Origin: Haloarchaeobius amylolyticus
Lineage (GTDB): Archaea; Halobacteriota; Halobacteria; Halobacteriales; Natrialbaceae
Direction: 5' to 3'
DNA: 64,000 nt
NCBI RefSeq assembly: GCF_026616195.1
Contig: NZ_JANHDH010000001.1
Location: 496,001 to 560,000 of the forward strand
Below are positions 34,431 through 36,391 of the stretch, one piece after another (the stretch's first letter is position 1; each line of letters begins with the position of its first letter). Below the pieces are notes generated by a model, which saw only the letters and a program-made list of their open reading frames with translations, did no database searches and was not told the DNA's origin. The translations under genes were made by a program, and so were the position numbers.

Positions 34431-34514
34431 GCGTGGGTAGCCAAGCCAGGAAACGGCGCAGCGCTTAGGACGCTGTCTCGTAGGAGTCCGCCGGTTCAAA
34501 TCCGGTCCCACGCA
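34431..34514 (+). tRNA. tRNA-Leu, anticodon UAG
   Basis: An 84-base type II tRNA. The acceptor GCGTGGG (34431-34437) pairs with CCCACGC (34507-34513), with discriminator A at 34514. The anticodon stem is CAGCG/CGCTG with loop CTTAGGA, giving anticodon TAG, which reads CUA-type Leu codons. A long variable arm (TCTCGTAGGAG) follows, as expected for tRNA-Leu, then the T arm GCCGG-TTCAAAT-CCGGT. CCA is not encoded. The 3' end 34493-34511 is repeated exactly at 34597-34615, so this gene is a recombination target. Confidence 0.96.
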
Positions 34515-34548
34515 TTGCTGCCGCGAACAACTCGTGAGCGGCAGCAAT
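34514..34548 (+). terminator. 11-bp perfect hairpin directly after tRNA-Leu
   Basis: ATTGCTGCCGC (34514-34524) and GCGGCAGCAAT (34538-34548) are exact reverse complements around a 13-base loop. The stem begins at the tRNA discriminator base. It could end transcription or guide 3' processing; no T-tract follows, so its class is uncertain. Confidence 0.5.
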
Positions 34549-34586
34549 CGGACGGACCGGATTCTGAACCAGCGAGCGAACGAAGT

Positions 34587-34615
34587 GAGCGAGTGAGGTT
34601 CAAATCCGGTCCCAC
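34587..34615 (+). repeat. Left direct repeat carrying a tRNA-Leu 3'-end copy (att-like)
   Basis: The 29-base element gagcgagtgaggttc plus aatccggtcccac-type end. Positions 34597-34615 match the tRNA 3' end (34493-34511) without a mismatch, and the whole element recurs at 36214-36242 with two differences. This is the arrangement left when an element recombines into a tRNA gene. Confidence 0.7.
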
Positions 34616-34773
34616 CTGTTCGGCCCTGTCGAACCTCTCAATAGGTGATAGATTTCAGTAGCTCTGCTGGATAGAGGGCGCGAATCGGTCACGGATGGAT
34701 TGCCTCTGGCAGGTAATCCAGAAATGGCTGACATACCCCAAAGGATTCATCGTAGTACGCTGTTCGTGCGGCT

Positions 34774-35256
34774 ATGAAACGTCGGACAGTATTGGCCTCG
34801 TTCGGGACAAGTGTGGTCGCAATATCTGGATGTACTGTCCTTGGTTCGGAGGGTTCAGGTCCAGAGTACCTCGATCAGGAGCCGATAGTTTACTACCGAG
34901 ACGATTTGAGACTTTCACTCACCGATCGCCCTGTCCATCTGGGGGACACCATCGAGTTCGAAGTCACGAATACCAGCGATTCGTCCGTCTCCCTGGGATG
35001 TAAGAACCCATGGGCACTCCAATACCAGACCAGCAAGGGGTGGAAGCACGTGACATGGACGGGAGAGCGGTTCTATCAACTCTGCCTGACTCAACTCGGA
35101 GCTGGGAAGTCACGCACTGAGCAAATTACCCTCTCAGAGCAGGCACTAGAAGTCAACGCATCCAACCTCCAGCAGCCATTGACCGAGGGGGCATACCGGT
35201 TCGTCCTGATAGGGTCTGCTCCATATTTAGCTATTCAATTTAATGTCGTTGGCTGA
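34774..35256 (+). CDS. Predicted lipoprotein with Ig-like domain
   Basis: A 160-residue protein. The N-terminus KRRTVLASFGTSVVAISGC has a twin Arg and a lipobox-like ISGC with Cys20, so it is probably exported by Tat and lipid-anchored. Residues ~40-160 look like a small beta sandwich: IEFEVTNTSDSSVSLGC, WALQYQTSKGWKHVTWTG and LTEGAYRFVLIG, similar to Ig-like domains that end haloarchaeal surface proteins. Third-position G/C is weaker than in the flanking genes, consistent with transfer. It lies inside the att-like islet. No function is assigned. Confidence 0.78.
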   Translation: MKRRTVLASFGTSVVAISGCTVLGSEGSGPEYLDQEPIVYYRDDLRLSLTDRPVHLGDTIEFEVTNTSDSSVSLGCKNPWALQYQTSKGWKHVTWTGERFYQLCLTQLGAGKSRTEQITLSEQALEVNASNLQQPLTEGAYRFVLIGSAPYLAIQFNVVG

Positions 35257-35508
35257 AATCGAAGCAGGTCGAACCAATCTGCGCCCTGCTGACTGCATCC
35301 TCTGTATCTTGCGCGCCGTTACTGACAGCTCGCCGGTCCTCGGTCAAGGTCGTGATGAATACAGGGCGCGAGTCGGCCGAGAGTGAATCGCTACGAGTGG
35401 CACGCTGAACCAGTCCTGCGGGGTTGTTCTGGTTGACTACCAGCGAGAGACCACGGCGATCGTCATCAGCACTGGACCGATTCTAACGCCGAAAACCAGG
35501 AACCTACA
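35257..35508. other. Non-coding or decayed gene region of the islet
   Basis: 252 bases between two convergent islet genes. On the minus strand about 70 codons stay open (roughly 35263-35475) with plausible residues such as GLSLVVNQNNPAGLVQ and FITTLTEDRRAVSNGAQ, but there is a stop before them and no start codon. It may be the tail of a broken gene; no family was recognised. Confidence 0.35.
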
Positions 35509-36021
35509 CTAGGCCGAGGTCGATGGCGGTGACGACATCTCATCACCATCCTCTCGGTGGGTAGACCCTCGTATCCCGGCGATTCCGGCGCCGAAAAGGA
35601 GAGATCCACCGGCGATGAGCATGAAGGGCTCTGCGCCGAGAATGAACATGACGGGCTCCCCAGACCTTCGGTAGGTCGTTTCCGTGAAAAGCGGATAGGG
35701 GAGCGCATTCCAGGCGATAATAATCGTCCGGAACACCTCGAATAGGACGATTCCTCCTCCCACAACTGGCACGACGGAGAGACGCTTCCTCCGGATGGAC
35801 AAAGCCGCCCCAACAACCCCAACGGCTCCTACTCCTGCGAGCAACCACTCTCGCCGACCGAGTGCTTCCCCACCGGCGTTAATCGTCCCCTGGTACCCCG
35901 GTGCAACGTGGAAAATCCCCTGCTGTACCCCGACAATCACCGTCACGAAGCCAGCTACCGAGAGGATTATTGCATTGACACCGTGGGTATTGAGGAGTCG
36001 ACTCGTTCTTCCAAATCTCAT
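35509..36021 (-). CDS. Four-helix membrane protein of the islet, function unknown
   Basis: A 170-residue protein with hydrophobic segments at about 16-36, 55-75, 82-104 and 128-150, an Arg-rich cytosolic loop (SIRRKRLSV) and a polar C-terminus with Ser/Thr. Composition is lower in G+C than the core genes. The ATG at 36021 is supported by a TTTATAC box 25-31 bases upstream. No family was recognised. It converges on the lipoprotein gene. Confidence 0.72.
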   Translation of the reverse strand: MRFGRTSRLLNTHGVNAIILSVAGFVTVIVGVQQGIFHVAPGYQGTINAGGEALGRREWLLAGVGAVGVVGAALSIRRKRLSVVPVVGGGIVLFEVFRTIIIAWNALPYPLFTETTYRRSGEPVMFILGAEPFMLIAGGSLLFGAGIAGIRGSTHREDGDEMSSPPSTSA

Positions 36022-36045
36022 ATATCGAATATATACGGAAGAATA

Positions 36046-36052
36046 GTATAAA
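36046..36052 (-). promoter_or_regulatory. TATA box of the islet membrane-protein gene
   Basis: TTTATAC on the minus strand is 25-31 bases before the ATG at 36021. It shows that the islet gene keeps a haloarchaeal promoter and is probably transcribed. Confidence 0.6.
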
Positions 36053-36213
36053 CACCAGGGTCAGTATGCGGGTCCACCGTCGATGATGGAGTCACCCTCT
36101 GCGTGTGTCACCTGAATTCTGGTAGGCTCTAGAGACTTCAACAGAGCTACCTGTTCTGGAACCCCAGTCACCGACTGCGCAGCCCAGGTCTGTTTCGCTG
36201 CGAAGCGCAAGCG

Positions 36214-36242
36214 GAGCGAGTGAGGTTCGAATCCGGTCGCAC
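36214..36242 (+). repeat. Right direct repeat, degenerate tRNA 3'-end copy
   Basis: The 29-base copy of 34587-34615 differs at two positions, both in the tRNA-derived part (ggttcGaatccggtcGcac). It ends the low-GC segment. It may come from a different tRNA gene, such as one with a gttcgaatcc T loop, rather than from tRNA-Leu itself. Confidence 0.6.
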
Positions 36243-36363
36243 CGGTCCTCTCGACACACCCGACACTCCTGCCACAGAGACTCTTCTTGCACACGTCACG
36301 TCCGGATAGGAATCCTTCAGCAGGCCTGACACACTATCTCACGGCTGAATCGGCCACCAGAAA

Positions 36364-36370
36364 CATATAT
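36364..36370 (+). promoter_or_regulatory. TATA box of the pilin gene
   Basis: catatat lies about 22-28 bases upstream of the ATG at 36392. This favours that start over the longer frame from 36287 and fits a leaderless transcript. Confidence 0.6.
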
Positions 36371-36391
36371 CGAAACGACGAGTCTTCGGGC

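Follow-up and report, generated by a model that had tools for sequence, protein, structure and literature searches.

A two-gene islet behind tRNA-Leu(UAG) of Haloarchaeobius amylolyticus, probably lying between the tails of two tRNA-trailing hairpin units

Elements that integrate at archaeal tRNA genes (PMC8371274), including those of the HSTV-2 type, duplicate a 3' segment of the tRNA up to its exact end, and the latter type uses tRNA-Leu(UAG) as its site. The hairpin units described here share both of these properties; such elements, however, carry an integrase next to the tRNA and a core that, where seen, usually extends into the anticodon arm, whereas the units have no gene, a tail of 22 nt and an inverted T-loop arm. 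The units are also similar to MITE, REP and PATE repeats in being short, gene-less, palindromic, present in many copies and apparently mobile, the PATEs being short palindromic repeats described in Haloquadratum (PMC3119063). They differ from these repeats in sitting behind tRNAs, each with nt 52–73 of its own tRNA, and no link to a transposase was found. Like integron attC sites, the units are imperfect palindromic hairpins able to form tandem series; the attC core consensus is GTTRRRY, to which the unit arm GGTTCRAATCC does not fit, and an attC reading was hence rejected. Most centres of the second hairpin of the unit, finally, resemble d(GCGNAGC)-type DNA mini-hairpins, with GNA triloops closed by Watson–Crick pairs, which are known from chemistry and aptamers and not as a genomic repeat family. 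In the open-access papers searched, we found no description of tRNA-trailing hairpin units.

The locus studied lies in a window of 64,000 nucleotides (C1:496001-560000 of the genome, here G000), in which the initial annotation had described a tRNA-Leu-linked islet with att-like repeats. The following features were found.

34431–34514, plus strand: tRNA-Leu(UAG) (ARAGORN; Rfam RF00005), with nt 52–73 at 34493–34514
34514–34548, plus strand: hairpin A, directly after the tRNA, with an 11-bp perfect stem (ATTGCTGCCGC / GCGGCAGCAAT) and a loop flanked by GA...GA
34554–34570, plus strand: 5' arm of hairpin B, an inverted T-arm copy (GGACCGGATTCTGAACC), the same arm being found in congeners
34571–34596, plus strand: central part of hairpin B (AGCGAGCGAACGAAGTGAGCGAGTGA), containing a GNA-type triloop (C-GAA-G)
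34597–34618, plus strand: 3' arm of hairpin B (copy 1), a copy of tRNA nt 52–73, the first 19 nt identical
34619–36189, no strand: low-GC insert, the islet proper (islet about 34619–36223), GC 0.554, between two unit tails and with no counterpart in G001–G005
34774–35256, plus strand: predicted lipoprotein, 160 aa, with a Big_14 (Ig-like) domain, PF20251
35509–36021, minus strand: predicted membrane protein, 170 aa, of no family
36190–36245, plus strand: putative 3' half of a second hairpin B with a second tail copy (36224–36245)

The 3' 19 bases of the tRNA (GGTTCAAATCCGGTCCCAC, 34493–34511) recurred exactly at 34597–34615, as had been noted before, and a third copy with two mismatches was located at 36224–36242. 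Three such matches lie far above chance, with an expectation of 0.02 for them in the window and three of them reached in 0 of 100 shuffles. It was likewise correct that a 29-base version with two mismatches lies at 36214–36242, its partner being 34587–34615 and the pair being extendable to 33 nt at 91%; this match starts in GAGCGAGTGAG, a non-tRNA sequence upstream of the T-loop that is common to both downstream copies. The inverted T-arm and copy 1 fold into hairpin B. At the right-hand side of the islet, 36200–36234 (35 nt) was 97% identical to the unit found behind tRNA-Gly(GCC), and this repeat had no recognisable 5' arm, so that its label as a half-unit rests on the 35-nt match to another unit. 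The locus is thus best read, from its sequence, as one complete unit followed by the 3' half of a second, and since the right repeat corresponds to the 3' half of a hairpin B matching the tRNA-Gly(GCC) unit, the islet would sit where hairpin A and the 5' arm of the second unit are expected. Within 34514–34570, two pairings are open to the inverted arm, one with the tail of the tRNA itself, whereby hairpin A is enclosed, and one with the downstream copy, much as in an attenuator. A search of the unit against Rfam 15 gave the tRNA alone above the gathering score; a match to mir-5880 was weak (37 bits versus a cut-off of 97) and is explained by the long hairpin that the tRNA tail and inverted arm make, and that identity was thus discarded.

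With regards to composition, GC was 0.554 over 34616–36213 compared to 0.68 and 0.66 on its two sides. The two islet genes had a GC3 of 0.57 and 0.63 compared to 0.84–0.95 in most neighbours, with the pilin gene at 0.65. This agreed with the lower GC that had been noted for the segment. The notion that the segment ends at the last repeat did not stand, as the sequence past that repeat (36243–36390) also had a GC of 0.554 and the right edge is hence not sharp by composition. The cargo was indeed one lipoprotein and one membrane protein, both as predictions, and neither PADLOC nor PHROGs gave anything for either of them. Relatives were sporadic and in other genera, in 13 of 391 genomes for the lipoprotein and in 35 of 391 for the membrane protein, which was 82% identical to a protein on a Haloprofundus plasmid; these relatives elsewhere were mostly not beside tRNAs, two loci excepted.

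Comparison with the same locus in five congeners (G001–G005) showed that the insert is lacking there. The distance from the tRNA to the pilin gene was 1878 nt in G000 as compared to 232–363 nt in G001–G004 (read in G004 from the far end of an element that it carries), and these four had tRNA-Leu(UAG), then a unit or its remains, then the pilin gene, with hairpin B reduced to its 5' part in G001. In G005 we found a unit plus a different low-GC insert of 761 nt at the same place; this insert, lying behind the unit (L023, about 200–800), holds two small hydrophobic ORFs. All five congeners kept at least part of a unit after tRNA-Leu(UAG), with a different hairpin A sequence in G005, and the second unit of G002 had a hairpin A nearly identical to that at tRNA-Leu(UAA) in G000. 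Both cargo genes were absent from all five, so the same two genes do not occur in all relatives and the islet is a lineage-specific insert. Of the flanking repeats, copy 1 exists free of the islet in congeners and copy 2 resembles the unit of another tRNA.

The architecture was found behind many other tRNAs. A 21-nt motif (GAGCGAGTGAG joined to the T-loop) recurs in the genome, with most close matches about 100–300 nt behind tRNAs, these being tRNAs for Gly, Arg, Lys, Val, Ser, Met and Thr. Copies of a tRNA's own tail were present within 400 nt downstream of 23 of the 50 tRNAs in G000 (upstream, 1; tails of other tRNAs, 5–7) and downstream of 25 of 51 in G005 (upstream, 1; tails of other tRNAs, 0–7), and between the two genomes a unit was found in both for 12 tRNAs, in one only for 16 and in neither for 15. 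Close pairs of tRNA genes, most with their own unit, were seen in G000 for tRNA-Gly(GCC), Asp and Met (C1:1094050/1095528, C2:108932/110087, C2:881341/881988), and close pairs occur in G005 too.

A unit comprises about 100 nt, with hairpin A followed by hairpin B. In hairpin B, the universal T-loop sequence in inverted form (GGATTYGAACC) makes up the 5' arm, and a copy of nt 52–73 of the unit's own tRNA the 3' arm. When 127 hairpins were selected by the hairpin alone, regardless of the tail, agreement of tail and own tRNA was 0.83–1.00 over nt 52–73, of which the first 11 nt are fixed by the pattern so that the real test lies in the tRNA-specific nt 63–73 and in the edges, and it was 0.35 and 0.50 at the neighbouring bases. 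All 22 nt were identical in 78 of the 127 tails, and agreement with other tRNAs, used as a control, was mostly about 0.4. Nucleotides 52–73 of the own tRNA are accordingly duplicated with sharp edges. The inverted arm, on the other hand, stops after 11–12 bp and thus represents the universal T-loop and not a tRNA-specific sequence. Tails were found with a peak at about 100 nt behind the tRNA and with a second group at about 190–270 nt, a spacing that two tandem units would give.

The units are confined to Halobacteria in the genomes sampled. A strict hairpin pattern, GGATTYGAACCN{18,48}GGTTCRAATCC, was found in 202 of 391 Halobacteria genomes and in 60 of 86 genera, with 0 for a reversed-pattern control, and in a sample of the phylum it was seen in 33 of 53 Halobacteria and in none of 242 genomes from outside the class; among named genomes, a scan gave at least 119 stretches with the strict hairpin, at least 109 of them haloarchaeal by title. 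Among the loci fetched, 131 of 143 strict haloarchaeal hairpins were at most 400 nt downstream of a tRNA and 0 were upstream only, with 31 isoacceptor types represented; the 12 without a tRNA included some that lie in arrays, follow tRNAs with introns or stand at the end of a contig. Two Haloferax species had strict copies. A T-arm palindrome 36 nt downstream of tRNA-Ser in a Woesearchaeota genome bin (L184) was a single case that may be due to chance or be independent. In IMG/VR the strict-hairpin search gave eight stretches, none recognised as haloviral, most of which were near-perfect T-arm palindromes unlike the haloarchaeal unit, with one or two overlapping tRNA genes. Several viral contigs (L388–L392 and L394) carried near-perfect inverted T-arm-like palindromes (GGATTTGAACCATGTTCCTCTGG...CCAGAGGAACATGGTTCAAATCC) on related, possibly bifidobacterial contigs, and a similar palindrome at L395 lay under an ARAGORN call of tRNA-Gln. 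The IMG/VR palindromes may be symmetric sites of attachment or inversion, and they differ from the units of haloarchaea.

Taken together, we find it probable that the repeats around the islet are the tails of tRNA-trailing hairpin units and that the islet is cargo inserted between two such units. The units themselves resemble non-autonomous hairpin repeats that target tRNAs and undergo gain, duplication and loss. The initial reading of the locus as a site-specific element reduced to cargo, or as a satellite, is then retained as to an insert without an integrase. It is not supported as to the repeats being the att pair of the islet, because copy 1 occurs in congeners that lack the islet, many other tRNAs are followed by this architecture as well and neither repeat of the window reaches the anticodon arm, unlike those of most tRNA-Leu(UAG) elements.

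The rival that survives best, which we regard as possible though clearly less probable, is that the islet is a decayed halovirus-type element of tRNA-Leu(UAG) that has lost its integrase, with the T-arm repeats as attL and attR and copy 1 as a secondary attB. True elements do use this site. A family of tyrosine recombinases (phrog_1), traced from Haloarcula argentinensis, had matches in 187 of 391 genomes, and in 28 of the best 30 loci the integrase lay directly behind a tRNA-Leu, with UAG in all but two; tRNA-Leu(UAG) is a real integration hotspot. The congener G004 is among the genomes in which the family targets this tRNA, its tRNA-Leu(UAG) being followed by a tRNA-Leu-type integrase (L123, G004:C2:19458-22521); elsewhere in that genome, at G004:C11:2459-3348, a 64-nt 3' part of the tRNA precedes a hairpin unit and has the appearance of this element's distal end. 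Relatives of the integrase in haloviruses include that of HSTV-2, in which the 3' sequence of tRNA-Leu(UAG) stands directly before the integrase gene; the viral contigs searched gave no relative of the query, whereas GenBank haloviruses do have it. Only in Haloarcula argentinensis (L268) did a unit separate the tRNA from the integrase; the element there terminates in a further hairpin with its tail, so that the layout (unit tail, element, hairpin plus tail) equals that of the islet locus. In G111 the right end was a tail without an anticodon arm. These two layouts show that recombination exactly at the tail can take place, irrespective of which came first. Another integrase (phrog_1) was seen near a hairpin unit in a Natrialbaceae genome bin (L275, 3461–4735), the unit lying about 4 kb behind a tRNA-like gene called Pyl by ARAGORN.

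Several lines of evidence speak against this rival. In most elements with a right end found, among 18 loci that were extended, the att core starts at the 3' end of the tRNA and extends into its anticodon arm, as it does in HSTV-2, whereas the repeats of the window measure 19–22 nt, span nt 52–73 only and have no anticodon-arm core. In several of the 18 loci, and in G004 alike, hairpin units were found beyond the far end of the element, which indicates that the units belong to the chromosome and were pushed to the far side. That the islet has no integrase was upheld, as tblastn with three integrases gave no significant remnant (best E 0.05), and the sequences retrieved behind tRNA-Leu(UAG)-type integrases contained neither of the cargo genes; the islet as a copy of a known element was rejected, with integrase remnants, cargo relatives and DNA matches all giving nothing. 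An integrase with the same target elsewhere in the genome, as the initial annotation had envisaged, was not encountered: the family gave 0 matches in G000, being present in G004 and more distantly in G001, and the G000 integrases found by PF00589 lie elsewhere than the islet.

Somewhat less likely still is that the units are functional RNA or DNA structures under selection, such as terminators, insulators or processing signals, with a function that requires the tail copy. Hairpin A stands immediately behind the tRNA and often has a T-rich 5' arm, and hairpin B folds with compensatory inner stems, the sequence of which varies while pairing is kept (362 of 475 cells Watson–Crick versus 219 in shuffled data, with a maximum of 247). 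The retention of at least part of a unit in the five congeners is also consistent with function, again with the different hairpin A of G005. On the tRNA strand, a GNA central triloop was found in 82 of 124 hairpins, compared to a shuffled mean of 2.3%, and TNC once; GNA mini-hairpin loops are very stable in DNA (PMC4686876, PMC10527192). G–T pairs were not favoured over A–C on that strand (3 versus 8), giving no signature at the level of RNA, and RNA-level selection through wobble pairs was thus rejected. The stable triloops together with the lack of a G–T excess point weakly to DNA rather than RNA. Further arguments against a functional structure are that the tail copy is missing from about half of the tRNAs, that its presence differs between close species and that copies range from perfect to barely recognisable.

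We consider it improbable that the tails are relics of ordinary tRNA-targeted proviruses or plasmids shrunk by deletion. In archaea, the 3' ends of tRNAs are common targets of integrases (PMC8371274), and in haloarchaea the ends of elements are marked by partial copies of tRNAs (PMC3119063), but the spacing peak at about 100 nt, the stereotyped hairpins in 60 genera and behind many isoacceptors and the inverted arm are all features that random deletion does not predict, and the strict-pattern matches in viral contigs held no stretch recognised as haloviral, most being the different, near-perfect palindrome.

Returning to hairpin units with cargo between them, the sharp copy edges, the tandem spacing, the turnover among congeners and the hairpin A common to two tRNA loci favour repeated site-specific insertion. 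The recurrence of the units behind many tRNAs, their restriction to Halobacteria, the paired inner stems and GNA triloops of hairpin B and the position of units past the far end of tRNA-Leu(UAG) elements also speak for this reading. On the other side, inverted duplication rather than selection could have produced the compensatory inner stems, gene conversion could keep the copies identical, and homologous recombination could have brought in the islet without a role for the repeats. The units would recombine at the tRNA T-loop, with insertion presumably duplicating nt 52–73 in the manner of an att site or a target-site duplication, whereby the tRNA would stay intact and units could stack. At tRNA-Leu(UAG), the 1.6-kb two-gene insert would occupy the position in which the second unit should have its hairpin A and 5' arm, having probably arrived by recombination at the T-arm copies, either through an integrase acting in trans or homologously. 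A more far-reaching proposal, which we put forward only tentatively, is that of a class-wide, previously undescribed family of gene-less hairpin repeats of Halobacteria. With its DNA single-stranded (GNA triloop), it would target the universal T-loop by pairing of the inverted arm, insert behind any tRNA with exact duplication of nt 52–73, form tandem stacks and offer cargo a landing zone.

When the end of a tRNA is found copied beside its gene, the usual interpretation is that a virus or plasmid has integrated there; many such copies in haloarchaea seem instead to belong to a hairpin repeat of stereotyped form. Programs that call islands from tRNA-tail repeats would misplace the boundaries at such loci. 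Mobile units would represent a new kind of tRNA-targeted repeat, whereas units retained for a function would add a new part to the tRNA genes of haloarchaea.
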